Shown here piece after piece: positions 11,733-38,132 of a DNA stretch of 64,000 bases. The notes under the pieces were generated by a model. It saw only the letters and a list, made by a program, of their open reading frames with translations. It had not been told where the DNA came from and did no database searches. The translations under genes and the position numbers were made by a program. Numbering within the stretch: the first letter of the stretch is position 1; every line of letters starts with the position of its first letter. The stretch is from Amycolatopsis sp. NBC_01488 (GTDB lineage Bacteria; Actinomycetota; Actinomycetes; Mycobacteriales; Pseudonocardiaceae), in the NCBI RefSeq assembly GCF_036227105.1, contig NZ_CP109434.1, positions 4,869,001-4,933,000 on the forward strand, given 5' to 3'.

Positions 11733-12608
11733 ATGAAGTTCACCCTGTCGATCGCGATGAACCCCCTCGATCAGCTGGGCGAGCTCGCCCGGGCCGCCGA
11801 AGAGGCCGGCTTCGCCTCCATCGCCCTGCCGGACTCGCTCTTCTACGCCGAAACGGTGGACACGGACTACCCGTACACCCCCGACGGCAGCCGGTTCTGG
11901 ACCGCGGACACCCCCTGGGTGGACCCGCTCGTCGCGACCGCGTCGATGGGCGCGGTCACCAGCCGGATCCACTTCTACACCTCGGTGCTCAAGCTCGGCT
12001 CGCGCAACCCGGTGCTGCTCGCGCGCCAGGTCGGCTCGGCGTCGGTGCTCACCGGCGGCCGGTTCGGCCTCGGGCTCGGCGTCGGCTGGCTGCCGCAGGA
12101 GTTCGAGTACTGCGGCGTCCCGTTCGAGCGGCGCGGCAAGCGCGTCGACGAGGCCATCGACGTCCTCCGGCTGATCCTCGACGGCGGGATGGTCGAGTAC
12201 CACGGCGAGTTCTACGACTTCGACAAGATCCAGATGAGCCCGGCACCGCCGTCGCGCGTGCCGTTCTACATCGGTGGGCACACCGAAGTCGCGCTGAAGC
12301 GCGCGGCCCGGGTCGCCGACGGCTGGTCGTCGGCGATGATGAAGCTCGAGGAGCTGCGCGACACGATCGCCCGGCTCAGGGAGCTGCTGGCCGAGCGCGG
12401 CCGCGCCGACGACCCGTTCGAGTACCAGGCCGTCTGCATCGACAAGTTCGGTCTCGACGGCTACCGCGAGCAGGCCGAGGCAGGCGTCACCGACATCATC
12501 ACCATGCCGTGGGTGTTCGACGGCGTCGGGTTCGACGCGCCGGTCGAGCCGAAGCTCGAAGCGATCCGCAAGTTCGGCGCCGAGATCATCGCGAAGTTCG
12601 AGGAGTGA
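11733..12608 (+). CDS. LLM-class F420-dependent oxidoreductase
   Basis: Luciferase-like monooxygenase-fold oxidoreductase (291 residues) expected to use coenzyme F420. The TIM-barrel family pattern is clear: MKFTLSIAMNPLDQLGELAR at the N-terminus, LLARQVGSASVLTGGRFGLGLGVGW in the middle, then PFYIGGHTEVALKRAARVADGW. It resembles the TIGR03619-type subgroup. The NTF2-like gene starts 5 nt downstream, so the two form an operon. The KstR-like box at the promoter and the presence of an F420 oxidoreductase (Rv3520c) in the mycobacterial KstR regulon suggest a role in steroid breakdown. The substrate is not known. Confidence 0.88.
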   Translation: MKFTLSIAMNPLDQLGELARAAEEAGFASIALPDSLFYAETVDTDYPYTPDGSRFWTADTPWVDPLVATASMGAVTSRIHFYTSVLKLGSRNPVLLARQVGSASVLTGGRFGLGLGVGWLPQEFEYCGVPFERRGKRVDEAIDVLRLILDGGMVEYHGEFYDFDKIQMSPAPPSRVPFYIGGHTEVALKRAARVADGWSSAMMKLEELRDTIARLRELLAERGRADDPFEYQAVCIDKFGLDGYREQAEAGVTDIITMPWVFDGVGFDAPVEPKLEAIRKFGAEIIAKFEE

Positions 12609-12613
12609 CTCCC

Positions 12614-13063
12614 ATGGGCGTGCAGGTCAGCTGGGACACCGCGGCGGAGCAGCCGCCCGCGCGGCGCGCGGCGTTCGCGTCGATGACCGCGGTGACGGCG
12701 GGGGACAAACAGGCGTGGCTGGACCTGTTCGCGCCGGACGGCGTCGTCGAGGACCCGGTCGGGCCGTCGTTCTTCGACGAGGAGGGCAAGGGGCACCACG
12801 GCCGCGAGGGGATCAGCGCGTTCTGGGACAAGACGATCGCGAACGTGGAGCGCTTCGAGTTCACGATCCGCGACTCGCACGCGGCGGGGGACGAGTGCGC
12901 CAACGTCGGCACGATCACGACGTACCTGCCGGGCGGCTACCGCGTCGACACCGACGGGGTGTTCGTCTACCGCGTCGGCGAGGACGGGCTGATCACGTCG
13001 ATGCGGGCGTTCTGGGAGACCGAGCGCGCGATGGCGACGGCCCGGCAGGTGACCGCGGAGTAG
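12614..13063 (+). CDS. NTF2-like / SnoaL-type protein (ketosteroid-isomerase fold)
   Basis: 149-residue single-domain protein of the NTF2/ketosteroid isomerase superfamily, starting at ATG 12614. Typical elements: an N-terminal helix (AFASMTAVTAGDKQAWLDLF), APDGVVEDPVGPS, then curved-sheet strands ending in DGLITSMRAFWE. Family members are small isomerases, hydratases or cyclases. As partner of an F420-dependent oxidoreductase under a KstR-like box it may act on a steroid intermediate. Whether the catalytic Asp/Tyr pair of true ketosteroid isomerase is present cannot be decided by eye. Confidence 0.82.
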   Translation: MGVQVSWDTAAEQPPARRAAFASMTAVTAGDKQAWLDLFAPDGVVEDPVGPSFFDEEGKGHHGREGISAFWDKTIANVERFEFTIRDSHAAGDECANVGTITTYLPGGYRVDTDGVFVYRVGEDGLITSMRAFWETERAMATARQVTAE

Positions 13064-13182
13064 CGTCCCGGCCAGCGGAAACCCAAATTCATATCTGATA
13101 CATGATCTCTTGACTCCCGGTTAGGCAGGACTCTTTACTAACGGGTGCAGACCTCCGACGTCTTCATCCACCGGGAGTGCGT

Positions 13183-14751
13183 ATGTCCTTTCTCCGGCGA
13201 ATCGCGGGCGCGGGCGCCGCGCTCGCGATCGCGGCCAGCGGTCTCGTCCTGTCCCAGTCCCCGGCGCTCGCCCTCGAGAACGGGCTCCTGCGCACGCCGC
13301 CGATGGGGTTCAACAACTGGAACTCCACGCAGTGCAAGGCGGACTTCAACGAGACGATGATCAGAGGTATCGCCGACCTGTTCGTCAGCAAGGGGCTCAA
13401 GGACGTCGGCTACACCTACGTCAACATCGACGACTGCTGGGCGCTGCCGGATCGGAACGCGAAGGGCGACCTCGTCCCCGACCCGGCGCGCTTCCCGCAC
13501 GGCATCAAGGCGCTGGCCGACTACGTGCACGGGCAGGGCCTGAAGTTCGGCATCTACACCAGTGCGGGCACCCACACGTGCAACAAGGCCGGCTTCCCCG
13601 GCGCGCTCGGCCACGAGCAGCAGGACGCGAACCTCTTCGCCTCCTGGGGCGTCGACTACCTGAAGTACGACAACTGCAACAACCAGGGCGTCGACGCGCA
13701 GCAGCGCTACAAGGCGATGCGGGACGCGCTCGCGAAGTCCGGTCGCGCCATCGCGTACTCCATCTGCGAGTGGGGCCAGAACCAGCCGTGGACGTGGGCC
13801 GCGCCGGTCGGGAACCTGTGGCGCACCACCGGTGACATCTCCGACAAGTGGTCGAGCATGATCTCGAAGGCCCAGGCGAACCGCGGCCTGGCGCAGTACG
13901 CCGGGCCCGGGCACTGGAACGACCCGGACATGCTGGAAGTCGGCAACGGCGGCATGACCGCGGCGGAGTACCGCACGCACTTCAGCCTGTGGGCGATGAT
14001 GGCGGCGCCGCTGCTCATCGGCAGCGACCTGCGGAAGGTGTCCGACGACAGCTTCTCGATCCTGAAGAACACCGACGTCATCGCGCTCGACCAGGACTCG
14101 CTCGGCAAGCAGGCGACGGTGCTCAGCGCGACCGGCGGCCTGGTCGTCTACAGCAAGGTCCTGGCCAACGGCGACCGCGCGGTGGCGCTGTCCAACGAGA
14201 CGTCGGCCACGGCGACGATCAGCACCTCGGCCTCGGCGACCGGGATCGGCAGCGCGTCGTCATATTCGCTGAAAGACTTGTGGAGCAAGGCTGTCCGCAC
14301 GACTTCGGGGTCGATCAGCGCCTCGGTGCCCGCGCACGCGACGGTACTGTACCGGGTTTCTCGCGCCGGCGGTTCCACTCGTTACGAAGCCGAATCGGCC
14401 ACCCTGTCGGTGGGCGGCACGGTGGACTCGAACCACGCGGGCTTCTCGGGGACCGGCTTCGCGAACGGCGCCAACGCGGTGGGCAGCTACGTCGAGTGGC
14501 AGGTGACGGGGCCGGCGTCGGCGCTGACGTTCGGCTACGCGAACGGCACGGCGGCGGCGCGCCCGGTGGACATCACGGTCGACGGCACGGTGGTGGCGAC
14601 GGCCGTACCGTTTCCGGCGACCGGCGCGTGGACGACGTGGAGCACGGTGACACGTCCGGTGGCCTTGGGTGCGGGTCCGCACACGGTCCGCCTGACCGCG
14701 ACGGCCGCGGACGGCCCGGCGAACCTCGACTACCTGGATTTGGCGTCGTAG
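13183..14751 (+). CDS. Secreted alpha-galactosidase (GH27) with CBM6/35-type module
   Basis: Extracellular hydrolase removing terminal alpha-galactose from plant oligosaccharides or galactomannan; 522 residues. A signal peptide (about residues 1-29, RRIAGAGAALAIAASGLVL, ending SPALA) precedes the GH27 domain starting TPPMGFNNWNS. The nucleophile Asp lies in DYLKYDNCNN and the acid/base Asp in RTTGDISDKW. A beta-sandwich follows the barrel, then from about residue 395 a CBM6/35-like module (RYEAESATL to NLDYLDL). ATG 13183 follows a GGGAG site. The upstream region is AT-rich with a candidate TTGACT -35 at 13110. Its last 22 bp overlap the convergent HxlR gene. Confidence 0.93.
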   Translation: MSFLRRIAGAGAALAIAASGLVLSQSPALALENGLLRTPPMGFNNWNSTQCKADFNETMIRGIADLFVSKGLKDVGYTYVNIDDCWALPDRNAKGDLVPDPARFPHGIKALADYVHGQGLKFGIYTSAGTHTCNKAGFPGALGHEQQDANLFASWGVDYLKYDNCNNQGVDAQQRYKAMRDALAKSGRAIAYSICEWGQNQPWTWAAPVGNLWRTTGDISDKWSSMISKAQANRGLAQYAGPGHWNDPDMLEVGNGGMTAAEYRTHFSLWAMMAAPLLIGSDLRKVSDDSFSILKNTDVIALDQDSLGKQATVLSATGGLVVYSKVLANGDRAVALSNETSATATISTSASATGIGSASSYSLKDLWSKAVRTTSGSISASVPAHATVLYRVSRAGGSTRYEAESATLSVGGTVDSNHAGFSGTGFANGANAVGSYVEWQVTGPASALTFGYANGTAAARPVDITVDGTVVATAVPFPATGAWTTWSTVTRPVALGAGPHTVRLTATAADGPANLDYLDLAS

Positions 14752-30260: not shown

Positions 30261-31094
30261 TCAGGCGGCGTTGAAGGTGTCCGGGTCGGGGCCGGTGCGC
30301 TCGCCGCGGTCCAGCGGCGTCAGCGACTCCAGCTCCTCCTCCGACAGGGTGAACCCGAACAGGTCGAAGTTCTCCTCGATCCGCGACGGCGTCACGGACT
30401 TCGGGATCACCACGTTGCCCAGGTGCAGGTGCCAGCGCAGCACGATCTGCGCGGGCGTGCGGCTGTGCTTCACCGCCAGTTCCGCGATGATCGGGTCGCC
30501 CAGCAGCGAGCCGCCCTTGGCCAGGGGGCTCCACGCCTCCGTCGCGATCCCGTGCTTCGCGTCGAACTCGCGGAGCTCCTGCTGCTGCAGGTACGGGTGC
30601 AGTTCGACCTGGTTGAGCACCGGGGCGACGTCGGCCGCGTCGAGCAGGCGCTCCAGGTGGGCGGGCTGGAAGTTGGACACGCCGAGCGCGCGGACCCGGC
30701 CGTCGGCGTGCAGCTTCTCGAACGCCTTCCAGGTGTCGAGGTACTTGTCGCGCTCCGGCGTCGGCCAGTGGATCAGGTACAGGTCGAGCTGCTCCAGGCC
30801 GAGCTTCTTCATGCTCTCGTCGAACGCCTTGAGCGTCGAGTCGTAGCCCTGGGCCGAGTTCCACAGCTTGGTGGTGACGAACAGCTCGTCCCGGGCGAGG
30901 CCGGACTCGGCGATCGCCCGGCCGACGCCCTTTTCGTTGCCGTAGAGGGCGGCGGTGTCGATGCTGCGGTAGCCCGCGTCGAGGGCGGCCTTCACGGCGG
31001 CGGTGGTCTCGTCGTCCGGGACCTGGAACACGCCGTAGCCGAGCTGTGGCATCGCCACGCCGTTGGAGAGTTCGATGACGGGCACGCTGGTCAC
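30261..31094 (-). CDS. Aldo/keto reductase
   Basis: 277-residue NADPH-dependent aldo/keto reductase of the 2,5-diketo-D-gluconate reductase group. The catalytic tetrad is visible: Asp in AGYRSIDTAALYGNE with Tyr in the same segment, Lys in LFVTTKLWN, and His in YLIHWPTP. The NADPH-binding C-terminus (VIPKSVTPSRIEENFDLFGF) is typical. GTG 31094 (VTSVPVIELSNG) is chosen because AAAGGA lies 6 nt upstream. Its substrate is not predictable. It is transcribed away from the ebo operon. Confidence 0.93.
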   Translation of the reverse strand: MTSVPVIELSNGVAMPQLGYGVFQVPDDETTAAVKAALDAGYRSIDTAALYGNEKGVGRAIAESGLARDELFVTTKLWNSAQGYDSTLKAFDESMKKLGLEQLDLYLIHWPTPERDKYLDTWKAFEKLHADGRVRALGVSNFQPAHLERLLDAADVAPVLNQVELHPYLQQQELREFDAKHGIATEAWSPLAKGGSLLGDPIIAELAVKHSRTPAQIVLRWHLHLGNVVIPKSVTPSRIEENFDLFGFTLSEEELESLTPLDRGERTGPDPDTFNAA

Positions 31095-31499
31095 GAGGGG
31101 TCCTTTCGGTGGGTGGTTCATCGGGCGGGTACCCGTTCCCCGGTGTCGAAACTTGCAGGGTGCCGATGGCGCCGGCGACGCCCAGGGCGAGCTGGCCACC
31201 CAGAACGTCGATCGCCGGTCGAAGGCCTGGCCGAGCGCGCTGATGGCCGTTGCGAGCAGGGCGGCGGGCACCCGAGCCGCCGGACGGAGGGGCAGGCCCG
31301 GTCGCGGGCCGAGGGGCTCGAAGATCCGGAGCGCGGAAACACTTGATCGACTGCGGCGATGTAGTCCGGGTGGACCTCCGCACGCCCAGGGGGACCGCGC
31401 TCGCCGTGGTGGCGGAGCGCGCCGCGGTGAGCGGGGTCCCGACCCGCGTCCGGTCGGGGGCGATCGGCGCGGGCTGAATCCGGCGAACTGGAGGAAGTC
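31095..31499. other. 405-bp intergenic region upstream of the ebo operon
   Basis: No convincing gene is seen. It should hold the divergent promoters of the aldo/keto reductase and the ebo operon. Minus-strand frames carry short protein-like stretches (ALLATAISALGQAFDRRSTF in one frame and GGQLALGVAGAIGTLQV in another). They look like pieces of a small membrane protein split by a frameshift, so a decayed gene is possible. No clear operator palindrome was found. Confidence 0.4.
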
Positions 31500-32609
31500 A
31501 TGGGGAAGATCGGTGTCTGGTTGATCGGCGCCCGGGGGTCGGTGGCCACGACGGCCGTCGCCGGGGCCGCCGCGATGCGGGCGGGACTGGCGCCGCCCAC
31601 GGGGTGCGTGACCGAGCTGCCGGACTTCGCCGGGGCGCCGCTGCCCGGGCTGGGGGACCTGGTCTTCGGCGGCCACGACGTCGTCGACACACGGCTGGTC
31701 AAGCGGGCCGAGCAGCTGGTCGCGGCGGGCGTGCTGCCCTCGACCCTGCCGGGCCCGATCAGCGCGGAGCTGGAAGCCACCGAAGCCCGGCTGCGCCCGG
31801 CCCCGTCCGGGGGCGGCCGGGCGGCGGCCGACCGGATCGTCGCCGACCTGACGGCGTTCGGCGAGGGCCTGGACCACGTCGTCGTCCTCAACGTCTCGTC
31901 CACCGAACCACCGTGCGAACCGCACCCGGCGCACGAATCCCTGGCCGCGCTGGAAGCGGACCTGGGCGTCCTGCCGCCCAGCGCGTTGTACGCCTACGCC
32001 GCCTTCCGCGCGGGCTGTGGCTTTGTCGACTTCACCCCGTCCACGGGCGCGCGGCTGCCCGCCCTCGACGAGCTGGCCCGCACGACCGGGCAGCCGTACG
32101 CGGGCCGCGACGGCAAGACCGGCGAGACGCTGCTGCGCTCGGTGCTCGCGCCGATGTTCGCCCAGCGCGCGCTGAACGTCTTGTCCTGGTCGGGCACGAA
32201 CCTGCTCGGCGGCGGCGACGGCGCCACGCTCGCCGACCCCGGTGCGGCGTCCAGCAAGAACGCGTCGAAGCAGCAGGTGCTGTCGCAGAACCTCGGCCGG
32301 GACGTCGACGGCGAGGTGCACATCGACTACGTCCCGGCGCTCGGCGACTGGAAGACCGCCTGGGACCACGTGCTGTTCGAGGGGTTCCTCGGCGCGCGCA
32401 TGACGCTGCAGCTCACCTGGCAGGGCTGCGACTCCGCGCTCGCCGCGCCGCTGGTGCTCGACCTCGCCCGGCTGACCGCCAAGGCGTGCCGCGACGGCGT
32501 CGCCGGGCCGGTGGCCGAGTTCGGGTTCTTCTTCAAGGATCCCGTCGGCGAGGGCCCGCACGACCTCGCGTCGCAGTACGCGGCCCTGCGTGAGTGGGCG
32601 AACCGGTGA
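31500..32609 (+). CDS. Myo-inositol-1-phosphate synthase-like cyclase (ebo-associated)
   Basis: NAD-dependent cyclase homologous to inositol-3-phosphate synthase, which converts glucose-6-phosphate into inositol phosphate through an internal aldol step. 369 residues from ATG 31500 with GGAGGA. The NAD loop is IGVWLIGARGSVATTAVAG. Core motifs VLNVSSTEP, GRDGKTGETLL, SWSGTNLLGGGDG and SSKNASKQQVL (active-site Lys/Asp region) are recognisable. It is the first gene of the ebo operon, overlapping eboC by GTGA. Because it is locked into this operon, it probably makes a special cyclitol phosphate for that pathway and not the cell's general inositol; this is inference. Confidence 0.88.
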   Translation: MGKIGVWLIGARGSVATTAVAGAAAMRAGLAPPTGCVTELPDFAGAPLPGLGDLVFGGHDVVDTRLVKRAEQLVAAGVLPSTLPGPISAELEATEARLRPAPSGGGRAAADRIVADLTAFGEGLDHVVVLNVSSTEPPCEPHPAHESLAALEADLGVLPPSALYAYAAFRAGCGFVDFTPSTGARLPALDELARTTGQPYAGRDGKTGETLLRSVLAPMFAQRALNVLSWSGTNLLGGGDGATLADPGAASSKNASKQQVLSQNLGRDVDGEVHIDYVPALGDWKTAWDHVLFEGFLGARMTLQLTWQGCDSALAAPLVLDLARLTAKACRDGVAGPVAEFGFFFKDPVGEGPHDLASQYAALREWANR

Positions 32610-33433
32610 AGGCGCTCGTCGAACTCGTCCGCGCGCCCGCCGCGCTGACCGTGCCCGGGGACGCCGTCGCCGGGGCCGCCGCGTCGGGGTGGCCCTTCGG
32701 CCGCCGCACGCTGGCGCTGACCGGCGCGTCCGTCTGCATCTACTGGGCGGGCATGGCGCTCAACGACTACGCCGACCGCCACCTCGACGCGATGGAACGG
32801 CCCGAGCGGCCGATCCCGTCCGGCCGGGTCAGGCCGGAGACCGCGCTCGGCGTCGCGACCGGGCTGACCGCGGGCGGGCTGGGCATCGCCGCGGCGGCGG
32901 GTGGCAAGCGGGCCCTGCGCGTCGCGCTCCCGCTGGCCGCGACGGTCTGGGCGTACGACTTCGTGCTCAAGGAGACCGTGTTCGGCCCGGCCGCGATGGC
33001 CGCGGCCCGGGCACTCGACGTGCTGCTCGGCGGGGGCGGGGCCCGGGCGGCCCTGCCGGCCGCGCTGACCGTCGGGGCCCACACCTACGCGGTGACGACG
33101 TTGTCAAGGTCCGAAGTGGACGGTGCCAAGCCCGCTCTCCCGGCGGCCACCCTCGCCGCGACGGCCGGGGTGCGCGTCGCCGCCGGCCGCGTCGGGCCGC
33201 TGGCCTCGGCGCTGCTCGGGACGTACGTGGCGACGACCGGGCGGGCGCAGTACGACGCCGTCCGCGACCCGGCCGCGCCGAAGATCCGGCGCGCGGTCGG
33301 CGCGGGCATCCACGGCATGATCCCGCTGCAGGCCGGGCTGATCGCCCGGACCGGCGCGTGGCGCTCGGCGCTGGCCGTCGCCGCCGCGTTCCCGATCGCG
33401 CGGGCGCTGAGCCGGAAGGTGTCGCCGACATGA
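32606..33433 (+). CDS. eboC: UbiA-like prenyltransferase EboC (SCO3242 family)
   Basis: 275-residue integral membrane protein of the UbiA superfamily, probably transferring a prenyl or polyprenyl chain to an acceptor at the membrane. The first Asp-rich motif is MALNDYADRHLDAMERPERP (the NDxxDxxxD pattern) followed by PIPSGR. The second Asp-rich region is weak, as in the SCO3242/EboC branch: TTLSRSEVDGA, and RDPAAPKIRRAVGAGIHGMI near the C-terminus. At least six hydrophobic helices are present. GTG 32606 overlaps the cyclase stop, and the stop overlaps the next ATG. Confidence 0.85.
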   Translation: MKALVELVRAPAALTVPGDAVAGAAASGWPFGRRTLALTGASVCIYWAGMALNDYADRHLDAMERPERPIPSGRVRPETALGVATGLTAGGLGIAAAAGGKRALRVALPLAATVWAYDFVLKETVFGPAAMAAARALDVLLGGGGARAALPAALTVGAHTYAVTTLSRSEVDGAKPALPAATLAATAGVRVAAGRVGPLASALLGTYVATTGRAQYDAVRDPAAPKIRRAVGAGIHGMIPLQAGLIARTGAWRSALAVAAAFPIARALSRKVSPT

Positions 33434-34251
33434 GGTTCGGGTACGGCACCAACGGCTTCGCCAACCACCGCCTCGGCGACGCCCTGCACGTCCTCGCCGA
33501 CCTCGGCTACGACGGGGTCGCTTTGACGCTGGACCACCAGCACCTCGATCCGTTCGGGCCGGACCTGGCGAGCCGCGTCGCCGCGCTGGCCGCCGAGCTG
33601 GACCGGCTCGGGCTGGCCGTGGTGATCGAGACCGGCGCGCGGTTCCTGCTGGACCCGTGGCGCAAGCACTCGCCGACGTTCCTCGACCCCGACCGGGCCG
33701 TGCGCGTGGCGTTCCTGACCCGCGCGGTCGAGATCGCCGCGGACCTCGGCGCGGAAGCCGTGTCGTTCTGGAGCGGGAACAAGCCCGCCGGTCTCCCCGC
33801 CGAGGACGCCTGGACACGTCTGGCCGACGGCTGTGCGGAGGTGCTCAAGGCGGCCGACGAGCACGACGTCAAGCTCGGCTTCGAGCCGGAGCCGGGGATG
33901 CTCGTCGAGGATCTCGACGGCTACTTCGAGCTGGCCCGGCGCCTGGGCGACCCGGAGCGGTTCGGGCTGACGCTGGACATCGGGCACTGCCGCTGCACCG
34001 AGTCCGCGTCCGTGCCCGACTGCGTGCGTCGCGCGCTGCCGCGGTTGGTGAACGTCCAGATCGACGACATGCGCCGGGGCACCCACGAGCACCTGGAGTT
34101 CGGCCAGGGGGAGATCGACTTCCCGCCGGTGCTGGAAGCGCTGTCGCCGTACACCGGGCTGGTCGCGGTGGAACTGCCGCGGGACAGCCACGCAGCCCCG
34201 CGGATCGCCCGTGCGTCCCTGGAGTTCCTGCGCAGGGCGGTGACCGCGTGA
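33430..34251 (+). CDS. Sugar-phosphate isomerase/epimerase-like protein (ebo operon)
   Basis: 273-residue TIM-barrel protein of the xylose isomerase-like/AP endonuclease 2 superfamily. Metal-ligand regions are visible: an Glu in LGFEPEPGM, an Asp/His in TLDIGHCRCTES, an Asp in VQIDDMRRGTHEHLEFGQG and a late Glu in LVAVELPRDSH. The set of Glu/Asp/His ligands is consistent with a metal-dependent isomerase or epimerase. Coupled on both sides by 4-nt overlaps within the ebo operon. It may act on the product of the upstream cyclase. Confidence 0.86.
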   Translation: MRFGYGTNGFANHRLGDALHVLADLGYDGVALTLDHQHLDPFGPDLASRVAALAAELDRLGLAVVIETGARFLLDPWRKHSPTFLDPDRAVRVAFLTRAVEIAADLGAEAVSFWSGNKPAGLPAEDAWTRLADGCAEVLKAADEHDVKLGFEPEPGMLVEDLDGYFELARRLGDPERFGLTLDIGHCRCTESASVPDCVRRALPRLVNVQIDDMRRGTHEHLEFGQGEIDFPPVLEALSPYTGLVAVELPRDSHAAPRIARASLEFLRRAVTA

Positions 34252-34793
34252 ACGCCTGGCTGGAAAAGGCACTGCACGACGTCGCCCACGACGCGTCGGT
34301 GTTGCGCACGCTGTTCCCGGGCGTCGGCCGCCGGGTTGGCCGGGGCCCGTCGGAAACGCCGGGCTGGACGGTCGACGACGTCGCCCGGGTCCGGCTGCTC
34401 CAGGCCGCGCCCGACGCGGCCGCGGAGCTGCCGGACCTCTACCGGTACGGCGACGCCGCCGAGAAGCGGGCGGTCCTGCGTGGACTGTCCGTTGTGGACA
34501 CCGGCGACGCGGGGCTGGACCTCGTGGCGGACGCCTTGCGGACCAACGACCCCCGGCTCGTCACCGCGGCCATGGGGGAGTACGCCGCCACGCACCTGGC
34601 CGACTCCGCGTACCGCCATGGCGTCCTCAAGTGCGTCTTCATGGGCATCCCGCTGGCCGAGGTCGCCGGGCTGGACCGCCGGACCGACGAGGAGCTGGTG
34701 CGGATGATGCGGTCGTTCGCCGCCGAGCGCACCGCCGCGGGCCGCGACGTGCCCGCCGACCTCCTCCCGCTGCTGACCGAACAGGACGCCTGA
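34248..34793 (+). CDS. eboA: EboA domain-containing protein
   Basis: 181-residue helical protein matching EboA, a family without known activity found almost only in ebo clusters. Seen: WTVDDVARVRLLQAAPDAAA, LRTNDPRLVTAAMGEYAATH, then the conserved HGVLKCVFMGIPLAEVAGLD and ELVRMMRSFAAERTAAGR. No signal peptide or metal motif apart from the conserved His/Cys near residue 125. GTG 34248 overlaps the previous stop; its own stop shares one base with the TatD-like start. Confidence 0.86.
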   Translation: MNAWLEKALHDVAHDASVLRTLFPGVGRRVGRGPSETPGWTVDDVARVRLLQAAPDAAAELPDLYRYGDAAEKRAVLRGLSVVDTGDAGLDLVADALRTNDPRLVTAAMGEYAATHLADSAYRHGVLKCVFMGIPLAEVAGLDRRTDEELVRMMRSFAAERTAAGRDVPADLLPLLTEQDA

Positions 34794-35644
34794 TGCGCAT
34801 CTTCGATCCCCACATCCACATGAGCTCCCGGACCACCGACGACTACGCGGCCATGCACGCCGCCGGCGTCCGCGCGCTCGTCGAACCGGCGTTCTGGCTG
34901 GGCCAGCCGCGCACGAACGTCGGCAGCTTCACCGACTACTTCGACGCGCTCGTCGGCTGGGAGCCGTTCCGCGCGAGCCAGTTCGGCATCGCCCACCACT
35001 GCACGATCGCGCTCAACCCCAAGGAGGCCAACGATCCGCGCTGCGTGCCGGTGCTCGACCTGCTGTCGCGCTACCTGGAGAAGGACGGCGTCGTCGCGGT
35101 CGGCGAGATCGGCTACGACTCGATGACCGCCGAGGAGGACAAGGCGTTCGCCGCGCAGCTCGCCCTCGCCATCGACCACGACCTCCCGGCGATGGTGCAC
35201 ACGCCGCACCGCGACAAGGCCGCCGGGACCGAGCGCAGCATCGCCGTGGTCCGCGAGTCGGGGATCGCGCCCGAGCGCGTGGTGCTCGACCACCTCAACG
35301 AGGTGACCGTCGCCGTGGTCAAGGATTCGGGCTCCTGGATGGGCTTCTCGATCTATCCGGACACGAAGATGGACGAGGACCGGATGGTCGCGATCCTTCG
35401 CGAGTACGGCACCGAGAAGGTGCTGGTGAACTCGGCCGCCGACTGGGGCAAGAGCGATCCGCTCAAGACCCGCAAGACCGGTGACGCGATGCTCGCCGCG
35501 GGGTTCACCGAGGACGACGTCGACCAGGTGCTGTGGCGCAACCCCGTCGAGTTCTACGGCCAGAGCGGGCGGCTTTCCCTGGCATCCGACACCGTGGACG
35601 CCGAGTTCGCGGGCAACTCGATCCTGCGGGGTGCGCGCAAGTGA
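34793..35644 (+). CDS. eboB: TatD-family metal-dependent hydrolase (EboB)
   Basis: 283-residue amidohydrolase-fold protein. N-terminal metal site FDPHIHMSSRT (HxH), Glu in VAVGEIGYDSM, His in PAMVHTPHRDK, His in VVLDHLNE and Asp in NSAADWGKSDPL follow the TatD pattern. TatD enzymes are best known as nucleases, but the EboB branch probably hydrolyses a phospho- or amide-linked small molecule. Overlaps with EboA (1 nt) and EboE (4 nt) show tight coupling. Confidence 0.87.
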   Translation: MRIFDPHIHMSSRTTDDYAAMHAAGVRALVEPAFWLGQPRTNVGSFTDYFDALVGWEPFRASQFGIAHHCTIALNPKEANDPRCVPVLDLLSRYLEKDGVVAVGEIGYDSMTAEEDKAFAAQLALAIDHDLPAMVHTPHRDKAAGTERSIAVVRESGIAPERVVLDHLNEVTVAVVKDSGSWMGFSIYPDTKMDEDRMVAILREYGTEKVLVNSAADWGKSDPLKTRKTGDAMLAAGFTEDDVDQVLWRNPVEFYGQSGRLSLASDTVDAEFAGNSILRGARK

Positions 35645-36768
35645 GGTTCCGGCACCCCGACGGCACGCTCGTCCACCTCGCCTACTGCACCAACGTCCAC
35701 CAGGCCGAGGACCTCGGCGGCGTGCTCGCCCAGCTGGCCCGCTTCGGCGAGCCGGTGCGGGACCGCCTGGGCGTCGACCGCCTCGGGCTCGGCCTGTGGC
35801 TGGCCCGGCCGGTGGCCTCGGAGCTGGTGGCGAACCCGGCCGCGATCGCCCGGCTGCGCAGCGAACTGGCCACCCGCGGCCTCGAGGTCGTCACCCTCAA
35901 CGGGTTCCCGTACCAGGGGTTCCACGACCCGGTCGTCAAGCACAAGGTCTACCGGCCGGACTGGTCGACGCCCGAGCGGACGCGGTACACCCTCGACCTG
36001 GCCGGGTTGCTCGCCGAGCTGCTGCCGGACGACGCCGTGCGCGGCAGCGTCTCGACCCTCCCGCTCGGCTGGCGCACGGAATGGCGGGACGACCGTGGCC
36101 AGCTCGAAGTGCTCGCCAAGGGATTGGCGGCGCAGGACCGTCCGGTGCGGGTGGCGTTCGAGCCGGAACCCGGCTGCGTCATCGAGACGACCGCACAGGC
36201 CGCGGCTTTGCTGTCCGAAGTGGACAAGGACTGGCTGGGCGTCTGCCTCGACACGTGCCACCTCGCGGTCGGGTTCGAGGACCCGGCCGCCGCGCTCGGA
36301 CGGCTCGAAGCCGCCGGGCTGGACGTCGTCAAGCTGCAGGCGTCGGCCGCGCTGGAAGCTGCTTTGCCGAACGATCCCGCGACTCGCCGGGCGTTGGAGT
36401 CCTTTGTGGAACCGCGATTCCTCCACCAGAGCAACGAAAGTGCGCCACCGGGCGCCGACGACCTCGACCTGGCGCTCGCCGGTGGCCTGCCCGGGGACGC
36501 GCCGTGGCGGGTGCACTTCCACGTGCCGCTGCACGCCGACCCGGCGCCGCCGCTGACGTCGACCCGGCCGGTGCTGGCCGGGACGCTCGCCGAGCTGTTC
36601 GGCGGCGCGACCGCGCGCACCGACCACGTCGAGGTCGAGACCTACACGTGGCAGGTGCTCCCGGACGCACCCGCCGACGACGCCGGGCTGGTCGCGGGCA
36701 TCGCGGCCGAGCTGGACTGGACCCGGCGAGAACTGATCACCCTGGGCCTGGAAGAGGTTGCGAAATGA
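35641..36768 (+). CDS. eboE: Metabolite traffic protein EboE
   Basis: 375-residue TIM-barrel protein of the EboE family, linked in cyanobacteria to movement of the scytonemin precursor to the periplasm. The opening HLAYCTNVHQAEDLGGVL is characteristic. Further elements: EVVTLNGFPYQGFHDPVVKH, VAFEPEPGCVIETT, VCLDTCHLAVGFEDP and VEVETYTWQVLP. The AP-endonuclease-like fold with Glu/Asp/His positions suggests a metal enzyme. No signal peptide, so it acts in the cytoplasm. The start overlaps EboB and the stop overlaps EboF. Confidence 0.87.
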   Translation: MRFRHPDGTLVHLAYCTNVHQAEDLGGVLAQLARFGEPVRDRLGVDRLGLGLWLARPVASELVANPAAIARLRSELATRGLEVVTLNGFPYQGFHDPVVKHKVYRPDWSTPERTRYTLDLAGLLAELLPDDAVRGSVSTLPLGWRTEWRDDRGQLEVLAKGLAAQDRPVRVAFEPEPGCVIETTAQAAALLSEVDKDWLGVCLDTCHLAVGFEDPAAALGRLEAAGLDVVKLQASAALEAALPNDPATRRALESFVEPRFLHQSNESAPPGADDLDLALAGGLPGDAPWRVHFHVPLHADPAPPLTSTRPVLAGTLAELFGGATARTDHVEVETYTWQVLPDAPADDAGLVAGIAAELDWTRRELITLGLEEVAK

Positions 36769-38132
36769 GCTTGCTGGTCCTCGACGTCGTCGGGCTGACG
36801 CCGCGGCTGCTCCCGCACATGCCGAACCTGCGCAAGATGGCCGAACCCGGCTTCACCGCGCAGCTCGACACCGTGTTCCCGGCGGTCACGTGCTCGGTGC
36901 AGTCGACGTTCCTCACCGGCCTGCAGCCGGCCGGGCACGGCATCGTCGGCAACGGCTGGTACTTCCGCGACCTCGGCGAAATCTTCTTGTGGCGGCAGCA
37001 CAACAGGCTGGTGCAGGGCGACAAGTTCTGGGACGCCGCCCGCCGCGCGCAGGCCGGGCACAAGGTGGCCAACGTCTGCTGGTGGTACGCGATGGGCATG
37101 GACGTCGACCTCACCGTCACCCCGCGGCCGATCTACCACGCCGACGGCAAGAAGTCCCCGGACGCCTACACCCATCCGCCCCAGCTGCACGACCGGCTCG
37201 TCGGCGCGCTCGGCGAGTTCCCGCTGTTCACGTACTGGGGTCCGACGGCGGCGATCACGTCGTCGAAGTGGATCATCGCGGCCGCGCAGAAGATCATGGC
37301 CGAGGACCAGCCCGACACCACGCTCGTCTACCTCCCGCACCTGGACTACGACCTCCAGCGCTTCGGCCCGGACGCGCCCCAGGCCGCGGCCGCCGCGCGG
37401 GAGATCGACGACGCCTTGAAGCCGCTGCTGGACCAAGCGGCCGCGGGCGGGCACACCGTCGTCGCGCTCTCGGAGTACGGCATCACGAACGCGAGCCGTC
37501 CCGTCGACATCAACCGGGCACTGCGTCGCGAGGGCCTGCTCAACGTGTACGTCCAGGCGGGCATGGAGTACCTCGACCCGTGGACGTCGCGGGCGTTCGC
37601 GGTGGCCGACCACCAGGTCGCGCACGTCTACGTCGCCGACCCGGCGGACATCCCGCGCGTGCGGGACATCGTGGCCGCACTGTCCGGAGTGGACGCCGTG
37701 CTCGACCGCGACGGGCAGGCGGGCATCGGGATCGACCACGAGCGAGCCGGCGAGCTGGTCGCGATCGCCGAGCCGGACGCCTGGTTCACGTACTACTACT
37801 GGCTCAGCGACGACCGCGCGCCGGACTTCGCGAAGACCGTCGAGATCCACCGCAAGCCCGGTTACGACCCGGCCGAGCTGTTCTTCGACCCGAACGACCC
37901 GGCGGTGAAGCTGAAGGCGGCGTCGGCGTTGGTCCGCAAGAAGCTCGGCCTGCGGTACTCGATGCAGGTCGTCCCGCTCGACCCCGCGCCGGTGAAGGGC
38001 AGTCACGGGCGGCTGCCCGACTCGCCCGAGGACGGGCCGGTGCTGCTGTGCTCGGAGCCGTCGCTCGCCCGCGAAAAGATCCACGCCACCGAAGTCAAGG
38101 ACTTGTTGCTGGCGGCTATCCGTACCGAATAG
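36765..38132 (+). CDS. eboF: Nucleotide pyrophosphatase/phosphodiesterase family protein (EboF)
   Basis: 455-residue member of the alkaline phosphatase/NPP superfamily. The N-terminal strand is MSLLVLDVVGLTPRLLPHMP (metal Asp7). The nucleophile Thr lies in FPAVTCSVQSTFLTGLQPAGHGI. LVYLPHLDYDLQRFGP supplies an Asp/His metal site, and the late His is in VALSEYGITN to ADHQVAHVYV. No signal peptide. It closes the ebo operon, overlapping EboE by ATGA. Expected to cleave a phosphodiester or phosphomonoester in the pathway's product. Confidence 0.86.
   Translation: MSLLVLDVVGLTPRLLPHMPNLRKMAEPGFTAQLDTVFPAVTCSVQSTFLTGLQPAGHGIVGNGWYFRDLGEIFLWRQHNRLVQGDKFWDAARRAQAGHKVANVCWWYAMGMDVDLTVTPRPIYHADGKKSPDAYTHPPQLHDRLVGALGEFPLFTYWGPTAAITSSKWIIAAAQKIMAEDQPDTTLVYLPHLDYDLQRFGPDAPQAAAAAREIDDALKPLLDQAAAGGHTVVALSEYGITNASRPVDINRALRREGLLNVYVQAGMEYLDPWTSRAFAVADHQVAHVYVADPADIPRVRDIVAALSGVDAVLDRDGQAGIGIDHERAGELVAIAEPDAWFTYYYWLSDDRAPDFAKTVEIHRKPGYDPAELFFDPNDPAVKLKAASALVRKKLGLRYSMQVVPLDPAPVKGSHGRLPDSPEDGPVLLCSEPSLAREKIHATEVKDLLLAAIRTE

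Follow-up and report, generated by a model that had tools for sequence, protein, structure and literature searches.

Gene clusters of the ebo type (eboABCDEF) are found in cyanobacteria, in Bacteroidota, in eustigmatophyte plastids and as the 'edible' cluster of Pseudomonas. For clusters that contain the cyclase EboD, a logic of making a cyclitol and then prenylating it has already been published (available sections of Yurchenko et al. 2016, PMC5133447), and the role in export derives from work on scytonemin (available sections of PMC6282210). Here we analyze an operon in a window of 64,000 nucleotides (the whole stretch of DNA under study) from Amycolatopsis sp. NBC_01488, which has ebo genes and a cyclase related to myo-inositol phosphate synthase (MIPS). 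We conclude, with a probability of roughly 0.6, that the operon encodes a variant of the ebo pathway, hereafter M-type, in which MIPS and a xylose-isomerase-like barrel (g3) take over from EboD the making of the cyclitol with which a prenyl-cyclitol route begins.

The operon consists of seven genes on the plus strand at 31500-38132, with open reading frames and junctions read from the sequence:

31490-31494, + strand: Shine-Dalgarno-like GGAGG ahead of the ATG of g1, read from the sequence
31500-32609, + strand: g1, MIPS-like cyclase, 369 aa, with both MIPS Pfam domains (PF07994, 1.6e-43; PF01658, 3.5e-33)
32606-33433, + strand: g2, UbiA-family prenyltransferase of the SCO3242 family and counterpart of EboC, 275 aa (NCBIfam equivalog SCO3242_trans, NF045897, 385 bits, cut-off 260)
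33430-34251, + strand: g3, xylose-isomerase-like TIM barrel, 273 aa (PF01261, 9e-39)
34248-34793, + strand: g4, EboA, all-helical, 181 aa (EboA domain NF035938, 163 bits, cut-off 50)
34793-35644, + strand: g5, EboB, TatD-like metallohydrolase, 283 aa (PF01026, 8e-12)
35641-36768, + strand: g6, EboE TIM barrel, 375 aa (equivalog NF035939, 403 bits, cut-off 250)
36765-38132, + strand: g7, EboF, alkaline-phosphatase-superfamily fold with an altered metal site, 455 aa (PF01663, 5e-64)

All seven reading frames are free of internal stops and have GC3 values of 0.92-0.96. The original prediction described an uninterrupted run of genes with an overlap at every junction, and we find the same six motifs: GTGA at 32606-32609, ATGA at 33430-33433, GTGA at 34248-34251, TGATG near 34793, GTGA at 35641-35644 and ATGA at 36765-36768. 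Its gene identities (MIPS-like, UbiA, barrel, EboA, EboB, EboE, EboF) are backed by the Pfam and NCBIfam profile matches listed above. Of 80 actinobacterial EboE loci (the window counted in), 63 have these seven genes in identical order, which makes the arrangement more than chance.

The absence of EboD, which the original prediction had noted for the cluster, extends to the rest of the genome. A tblastn search with an AroB query gave no match in the window locus, and the genome, a single contig of 9.5 Mb, has one PF01761 match, which is the aroB equivalog (354 bits against a cut-off of 305); an eboD gene elsewhere in the genome is thus ruled out, the sole DHQ-synthase being AroB. Among 73 actinobacterial loci with EboE and other ebo genes, which were hand-chosen, mostly one or two per genus, and give non-independent counts, MIPS is found in 69, EboD in one (the search was a tblastn with a single AroB query, which did detect locus L081), neither within the stretch in three, and both in none. 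For other phyla, the loci are the best 80 among 578 relatives found with an EboD-type query, a choice that leans toward EboD-type loci; in these 80, EboD is present in 76, and neither MIPS nor a separate g3 is present in any. The two cyclases occur together in 0 of 153 ebo loci (the 73 actinobacterial loci and the best 80 of 578 from other phyla). In a count over 394 genomes of the class, which leaves out five low or second pieces (G817, G369, G753, G833, G648), the ebo-type MIPS is present in 84, all 84 of which have EboE above its cut-off, and it lies within 8 kb of EboE for 82 of the 94 EboE matches. The neighbourhood survey that the original prediction had proposed thus supports its central claim, namely that MIPS stands in place of EboD, and neither of the two findings that it had named as refuting applies to this genome. 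The prenylation and export in its scheme are putative.

Several apparent exceptions were followed up, and three candidates for a true loss of MIPS were rejected. L030 belongs to genus g244. There, three of four genomes have the ebo-type MIPS ~26 kb upstream of EboE, and in another genome of the genus (G402) it is on a contig other than that of EboE. L044 is a second ebo copy, and the other ebo locus of that genome (L045) does carry MIPS; the genome of L065 has relatives of MIPS and g3 in a YcaO cluster. The ebo operon of G618 has neither MIPS nor g3, and relatives of both are found in another cluster of that genome, which counts in favor of our reading. Two full-length copies of the ebo-type MIPS (L232, L234) lie apart from any ebo genes, their genomes having an ebo locus at another site, and these count against our reading.

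In the M-type pathway as we propose it, a dedicated MIPS-like cyclase would convert a sugar phosphate to a phosphorylated cyclitol, most likely glucose 6-phosphate to inositol 1-phosphate. The g3 protein, a predicted metal-dependent barrel that is tied physically to EboA in many relatives, may rework the ring by isomerisation, epimerisation or dehydration, and the two proteins together would deliver the cyclitol that other ebo clusters obtain from EboD. A prenyl chain would then be linked to this cyclitol at the membrane by the UbiA enzyme. The resulting lipid, which is likely used outside the cytoplasm, may be completed or handled by EboB, EboE and EboF. The product of MIPS retains its phosphate. 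EboD-type cyclases are described as losing it (available sections of PMC5133447). Consequently, the two entries would yield no common compound without further steps. The sole phosphatase-like protein of the operon is EboF, in which four of seven canonical positions of the NPP phosphodiesterase site are replaced: with NPP residue numbering and roles as we presume them, V9, Q198, E237 and Y238 stand at the positions of D54, H214, D257 and H258, and the Thr, one Asp and one His are kept. This loss counts against the proposed pathway; we also saw no conserved transporter among the operon genes, a further point against it. With regard to the prenylation step, the acceptor that a Maribacter EboC of similar kind farnesylates in vitro is a hydroxyquinoline acid and not a cyclitol (available text of PMC9235831), which likewise counts against our reading.

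The part of the exchange that the original prediction missed is g3, which probably belongs to the same module as MIPS. This assignment is suggested by the lack of a separate g3 among the best 80 of 578 loci of other phyla, by the occurrence of g3 with MIPS in a cluster of Gemmatirosa kalamazoonensis (below), and by a g3 relative beside MIPS in the otherwise unrelated YcaO cluster, for which a literature search found no paper combining its features. The g3 gene accompanies MIPS in 65 of 69 loci; the four loci without it (L040, L043, L054, L058) count against our reading, and two of them, L040 and L058, lack UbiA and EboF as well. In 25 of 67 loci g3 and EboA are fused in one continuous frame, whereas the genes in the window are separate. 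Residues E152, D183, H186, H221 and E248 of g3 are invariant in 21 rows, and its scores lie far below the cut-offs of the equivalogs for inosose dehydratase (TIGR04379, 30 against 290) and hydroxypyruvate isomerase (TIGR03234, 40 against 353). EboA itself falls short of the narrower family model NF035937 (63 against 320). Its AlphaFold model has 12 helices and a mean pLDDT of 97; a profile search against PDB sequences gave nothing at E 1 or better, and the best match of a fold search had E 0.62. For EboE, the profile search gave a weak match to IolI only.

The remaining genes bear on whether the two types of cluster share a final product. The g2 protein scores 130 bits against the EboC equivalog (NF035940, cut-off 250), and its N53, D54, D57, D61, R135 and E170 are invariant in a 20-row alignment. 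EboB and EboF are 41% and 52% identical to their homologues in the EboD-type locus L081, and H7, H9, E105, H136 and D217 of EboB are invariant in 21 rows. In the EboF tree (all trees are quick SH-aLRT trees), a branch with an SH-aLRT value of 100 separates all 69 rows from actinobacterial loci with the M-type order from the 32 rows that have EboD-type ancestry. At position 138, UbiA has Asp in each of 61 M-type rows, and 62 of 70 EboD-type rows have Asn. The flanks also differ, with keto-sugar enzymes near M-type loci and a TMEM220-like protein (one example checked) in 29 of the best 80 of 578 loci from other phyla. These differences would be expected if M-type and EboD-type clusters led to different final products, with MIPS and g3 opening another pathway that reuses the Ebo core, which we regard as a genuine possibility though on the unlikely side. 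However, Asp138 is missing from the two non-actinobacterial MIPS-type rows, so that the position seems to track ancestry and not the cyclase, and we rejected it as a marker of cyclase type. A second argument against different products comes from Gemmatirosa, where MIPS and g3 sit with an EboB and an EboF that are nearest to EboD-type homologues.

This Gemmatirosa kalamazoonensis cluster (L218) is located on a plasmid, its g3 is 50% identical to that of the window, and no EboA match was found there. MIPS-bearing ebo clusters outside actinobacteria, a further point that the original prediction missed, also include haloarchaeal L217 and L220, which have a very distant EboF and in which EboA and EboE are unannotated. 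In all three, MIPS, one or more barrels, UbiA, EboB and EboF are found together, as in the window. The Gemmatirosa EboF groups with three EboD-type rows (SH-aLRT 97, one quick tree), and the presence of MIPS and g3 in such a cluster is the reason why the cyclase seems to have been exchanged at least twice.

With respect to the reaction of g1, the closest solved relative is the MIPS of A. fulgidus (PDB 1u1i, 3e-68); the match to M. tuberculosis Ino1 is only 2e-11, which places g1 nearer to archaeal MIPS than to the mycobacterial enzyme. The A. fulgidus residues N255, K278, K306 and K367, together with D225, D261 and D332, all of which we take to have catalytic roles, correspond to N234, K257, K285, K346, D204, D240 and D311 of g1, and all are invariant in 69 sequences. 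This conservation and the match to A. fulgidus MIPS argue against the alternative that g1 is related to MIPS but yields another product, such as a different cyclitol phosphate made from a different sugar phosphate with no inositol chemistry. We consider that alternative unlikely, although the MIPS superfamily includes a synthase of a five-membered cyclitol phosphate (PDB 6k96, 8e-14 to g1) and the ebo clade is distant from housekeeping Ino1 in the tree, g1 scoring 44 bits against a cut-off of 638 for the actinobacterial MIPS equivalog TIGR03450.

In many relatives the genes around the operon encode keto-sugar enzymes. ThuA, GSDH or 3-keto-disaccharide hydrolase domains are encoded within ~9 kb of 51 of 72 M-type loci compared to 0 of 40 control regions, ThuA adjoins a haloarchaeal MIPS-ebo cluster, two Gfo/Idh/MocA genes adjoin the EboD-type cluster of Ketogulonicigenium, and a ScyD/ScyE-family gene adjoins MIPS on a Streptomyces plasmid (L216). 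Flanking proteins were judged to be secreted by eye from the N terminus. The operon might accordingly serve extracytoplasmic breakdown of keto-sugars, in which case the Ebo product would be neither an exported metabolite nor an exporter but would assist secreted sugar oxidases as carrier or cofactor. We hold this to be improbable, given that the domains are absent beside the window locus and 20 other M-type loci within the stretch examined, and that few of the best 80 of 578 clusters from other phyla have them alongside (ThuA 3, GSDH 3, hydrolase 0). No tblastn match to a ScyE-family gene was found in the window locus. Genes for prenyl supply speak for the proposed prenylation in a few relatives: a polyprenyl synthetase adjoins 4 of 72 loci and none of 40 controls, and in L081 an IPP isomerase gene overlaps EboF. 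The low count of 4 of 72 also weighs against the pathway. An enrichment of sugar ABC ATPases was rejected, 21 of 72 against 10 of 40 controls being no excess. A broader and rather doubtful speculation is that ebo operons with either cyclase produce a membrane-bound prenylated cyclitol that acts as a carrier or redox-active cofactor for extracytoplasmic enzymes (secreted beta-propeller dehydrogenases, 3-keto-sugar enzymes, ScyE), the cyclitol being built in bacteria and haloarchaea by two unrelated and repeatedly exchanged chemistries, EboD or MIPS with the barrel isomerase.

The idea that g1, as a member of the MIPS family, provides a redundant source of inositol for mycothiol or phosphatidylinositol and sits beside ebo genes by accident is largely refuted: a separate housekeeping Ino1, for which the original prediction had called for a search, is found at 2.47 Mb (TIGR03450, 690 bits, cut-off 638), g1 has no tblastn match (E <= 1e-5) in that locus, and, among the 394 genomes, its subfamily occurs in none of those that lack EboE above the cut-off.

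The M-type operon would thus be a variant of a widespread and chemically unsolved pathway, and the apparently repeated swap of its cyclase is a comparative clue to the chemistry: two unrelated, mutually exclusive cyclases and at least two apparent exchanges provide comparative evidence for a ring-forming entry step and narrow the possible ring. M-type clusters are present in many actinobacteria, Streptomyces among them, in which gene deletion is feasible, and MIPS assays are standard, which makes the question directly testable. The pairing of MIPS with g3 and the fusion of g3 to EboA are new points beyond the original prediction, and the fusion singles out g3 as a target in tracing the following step of the pathway.

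Our literature search, with most subscription journals outside its reach, found no description of the MIPS of M-type ebo clusters. An actinobacterial ebo cluster, that of Saccharomonospora, has previously been shown in a figure of PMC9235831, where the available text covers EboD and, the figure aside, does not contain the word inositol. The window shares with the described eboABCDEF clusters homologous EboA, EboB, EboE and EboF and a UbiA prenyltransferase, clustered alike, and differs from them in having MIPS and an extra barrel and no EboD, and in a prenyltransferase of the SCO3242 family in place of the EboC equivalog. Compared to A. fulgidus MIPS, g1 retains the mapped catalytic residues and has Gly in the alignment where that enzyme has D259. 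SCO3242, the namesake of the NCBIfam family of g2, is listed in S. coelicolor as a putative transferase and SCO3243 as a myo-inositol phosphate synthase, and the pair is assigned to the CDA cluster (available text of PMC3610822).

The operon in the window carries an inositol-phosphate-synthase (MIPS)-like cyclase in place of EboD, the dehydroquinate (DHQ)-synthase-like sugar-phosphate cyclase usual in ebo clusters, and this MIPS-bearing (M-type) variant of the ebo pathway is genuine and widely distributed.

Features of the operon
31500-38132, + strand: seven-gene operon, overlapping at all six junctions (GTGA, ATGA, GTGA, TGATG, GTGA, ATGA)
g1, + strand: MIPS-like, both Pfam MIPS domains present
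g2, + strand: UbiA prenyltransferase, SCO3242 family (NCBIfam, 385 bits; cut-off 260)
g3, + strand: xylose-isomerase-like barrel (Pfam/NCBIfam)
g4, + strand: EboA domain (Pfam/NCBIfam)
g5, + strand: EboB, TatD-like (Pfam/NCBIfam)
g6, + strand: EboE (NCBIfam, 403 bits; cut-off 250)
g7, 36765-38132, + strand: EboF, PF01663

The six junction strings are the same as those read in the original prediction, which had also noted the absence of EboD and proposed a search for a second, housekeeping ino1. The genome is a single contig of 9.5 Mb, and a genome-wide search found two MIPS genes, g1 and one at 2.47 Mb that is a mycothiol-type housekeeping enzyme (TIGR03450, 690 bits against a cut-off of 638); because of this separate gene, g1 is ruled out as the housekeeping inositol synthase. 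The single DHQ synthase found in the genome is an aroB equivalog, so that nothing points to an EboD hidden elsewhere. Upstream of the operon (30261-31094, - strand), an aldo-keto-reductase-like gene was read by eye.

The nearest solved relative of g1 is the MIPS of A. fulgidus (3e-68), while M. tuberculosis Ino1 is distant (2e-11) and 6k96, a five-membered-cyclitol-phosphate synthase, also matches (8e-14). PDB chains 3qvw, 3qvx and 3qw2 deviate from wild type at the counterparts of K257, K346 and N234; these residues and K285, D204, D240 and D311, all of them mapped catalytic positions, are invariant in 69/69 MIPS sequences. Given the closest relative and the invariant mapped residues, g1 is likely a working MIPS-type cyclase, whose substrate would be a sugar phosphate.

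EboE was detected as NF035939 over cut-off in 18/396 genomes of a phylum draw, 102/200 of a family draw and 90/394 of a class draw, from which 79 loci were picked and joined with the window to give 80 actinobacterial loci. The complete order MIPS-UbiA-g3-EboA-EboB-EboE-EboF occurs in 63 of the 80; EboE stands alone in seven, and 73 have further ebo genes. The EboD-versus-MIPS neighbourhood survey that had been suggested came out one-sided: 69 of the 73 have MIPS, one has EboD (L081, the sole locus of that type found in the phylum to which the window belongs), three have neither within the stretch and none has both. A set of 80 loci from other phyla, Cyanobacteria, Bacteroidota, Chloroflexota and Acidobacteriota among them, was formed by the best 80 of 578 relatives of an EboD-type EboE query in named genomes, a choice that biases the set towards EboD-type loci. 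EboD was found in 76 of these, and MIPS and a separate g3 match in none.

A profile built from the 69 MIPS sequences was run over the class draw and compared with EboE. Ebo-type MIPS (at least 369 bits) was found in 84/394 genomes, all with EboE over cut-off; 304 had neither and six EboE only (Fisher p 3e-79, with related genomes counted as independent). It lies within 8 kb of 82 of the 94 EboE matches; six MIPS matches lie away from EboE, three of them on a different contig and one (L233) beside other ebo genes at the edge of its contig. The last two, L232 and L234, have a full-length ebo-type MIPS with no further ebo gene in 18 kb, and their genomes have an ebo locus elsewhere. Weaker matches (41-315 bits) in 14 genomes without EboE over cut-off would, by score, be other MIPS subfamilies. 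Of the six EboE-only genomes, one is G618 and five have a lone EboE-like gene in the stretch (G627 L077, G651 L059, G736 L236, G812 L071, G851 L075); the NCBIfam EboE model picks up a non-ebo paralogue as well. By eye, those of L059 and L071 adjoin dehydrogenase-complex-like and ABC transporter genes. In two genomes the ebo-type MIPS match consists of two adjacent pieces (G369:C10:129027-130097 and G817:C1:1694184-1695257), which may reflect gene breakage or a mistake in the sequence. In Streptomyces sp. AMCC400023 (L215) a 91-kb plasmid carries an M-type operon with type II polyketide genes beside it.

MIPS and g3 appear to form a module. The barrel is present in 65/69 actinobacterial MIPS loci, and its E152, D183, H186, H221 and E248, presumably the kind of metal site typical for the superfamily, are kept in 21 aligned rows. 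It forms a single continuous reading frame with EboA in 25/67 loci, and none of these loci has a fusion at the other five junctions; Yurchenko et al. 2016 (PMC5133447) mention actinobacterial barrel-EboA fusions without detail. Outside ebo the two genes also travel together, since a second cluster type of MIPS, Gfo/Idh/MocA, YcaO and g3 occurs in six of 10 non-ebo MIPS loci examined (L221, L222 and L227-L230, from Roseomonas, Hymenobacter and four actinobacteria; not at L219, L231, L232 and L234). Its YcaO fits no equivalog, and no publication on the cluster was found in the literature searched. A third hint comes from G618, whose ebo operon (L065) lacks both genes and which has relatives of MIPS (42%) and g3 (49%) in another cluster.

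In the EboF tree, one branch (SH-aLRT 100) splits 69 rows of actinobacterial M-type order (including L030, L044 and L065) from 32 of EboD-type ancestry (L081 and 31 chosen from the 80 other-phyla loci, three of the 31 without EboD in the stretch). A Gemmatirosa kalamazoonensis plasmid (L218) carries EboE, EboB, EboF, UbiA, MIPS and g3, with neither EboD nor EboA matched; its EboB and EboF are 70% and 61% identical to those of L081, its MIPS 48% to g1 and its g3 50% to the window's. In an EboF tree that includes it, its EboF groups with three proteobacterial EboD-type rows (SH-aLRT 97), a set whose joining with the M-type and remaining EboD-type rows the tree leaves open; the starred branches of this tree require at least two changes of EboD label. 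The MIPS of the plasmid falls outside the actinobacterial ebo clade of the MIPS tree. Two haloarchaeal plasmids (L217, L220) have an ebo-like set with MIPS and a highly divergent EboF oriented divergently to EboB, two to three barrels and UbiA.

Among the remaining proteins, UbiA keeps N53, D54, D57, D61, R65, R68 and R135 in 61/61 M-type and 70/70 EboD-type rows. EboA is all-helical in its model (pLDDT 97), has no known relative by PDB sequence profile or fold search, and could plausibly be a scaffold. In alignment EboB retains a TatD-like metal-ligand set. Aligned with Xanthomonas NPP, EboF still has the nucleophilic Thr together with a single Asp and a single His of the site, and has V, Q, E and Y at NPP positions D54, H214, D257 and H258 in nearly all 155 rows of both ebo types; the exceptions are five gaps and one A at D54, L in two haloarchaeal rows at H214 and one G at D257. 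EboF is probably not a normal two-metal phosphodiesterase, and this altered metal site weakens the published guess that it removes a phosphate (PMC5133447).

Flanks of about 9 kb around 72 M-type loci were compared with 40 control stretches, of which 39 belong to genomes that have an M-type locus and one to a genome with an EboE-like gene only, mostly ~0.4 Mb (closest ~0.1 Mb) from ebo. Keto-sugar domains occur at 51/72 loci (ThuA 30, GSDH 46, 3-keto-disaccharide hydrolase 30) against 0/40 controls, and at three, three and none, respectively, of the best 80 of 578 in other phyla. Of the 12 nearest listed such proteins or parts, 11 lie less than 100 bp off on the same strand, and L013:51-4643 is one large ThuA-GSDH-PKD-CBM6-3-keto-disaccharide-hydrolase protein. 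Two further barrel kinds (38/72 and 37/72) and, more weakly, Gfo/Idh/MocA (15/72) and ROK (14/72) are enriched over 0/40; sugar ABC ATPases are not enriched in this comparison. The flanks of the window operon contain just a ROK regulator and one xylose-isomerase-like gene, without keto-sugar domains, and the one ThuA match of its genome (90 bits) lies ~3.9 Mb away. ThuA is found near a haloarchaeal (Halocatena) cluster and two Gfo/Idh/MocA genes at a Ketogulonicigenium cluster. A ScyD/ScyE-family propeller gene lies directly upstream of MIPS-ebo on a Streptomyces sp. NBC_00019 plasmid (L216:7678-8877), and ScyE-like matches also lie upstream of MIPS at L049; in scytonemin synthesis, ScyE is described as the partner that works with ebo in the periplasm (PMC6282210). 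The keto-sugar, Gfo/Idh/MocA and ScyD/ScyE neighbours suggest, as an association, that extracytoplasmic enzymes may be the users of the ebo product. At 29 of the 80 other-phyla loci, the EboD-type cluster has a small membrane protein in its flank; the one example scanned (L163:11562-11900) is TMEM220 (PF15071).

The sequences show the parts, their conservation, the exclusion between EboD and MIPS, and the exchange. In the proposed mechanism, g1 would convert a sugar phosphate to a cyclitol phosphate, g3, tethered to EboA, would rework the ring, UbiA would prenylate it, and EboB and EboE would finish the product. Prenyl supply neighbours give modest support for prenyl chemistry: a polyprenyl synthetase gene adjoins 4/72 loci against 0/40 controls (three of the four confirmed by Pfam), and at L081 a type 2 isopentenyl-diphosphate isomerase gene (12362-13402) overlaps the EboF 3' end. 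The prenylated-cyclitol idea was put forward for EboD-type clusters by Yurchenko et al. 2016 (PMC5133447), and that of a lipid carrier and export comes from scytonemin work (PMC6282210). A caution for the prenylated-cyclitol reading is an EboC from Maribacter, whose in vitro farnesylation substrate is a hydroxyquinoline acid (PMC9235831).

No text describing a MIPS-bearing ebo variant was found in the literature searched; ebo genes of the actinobacterium Saccharomonospora appear in a figure of PMC9235831, whose text speaks of EboD and not MIPS. The window operon fails the EboD and EboC tests (g2 reaches 130 bits against the NCBIfam EboC cut-off of 250) and therefore falls outside the published definition of an ebo cluster, yet it appears to work like one.
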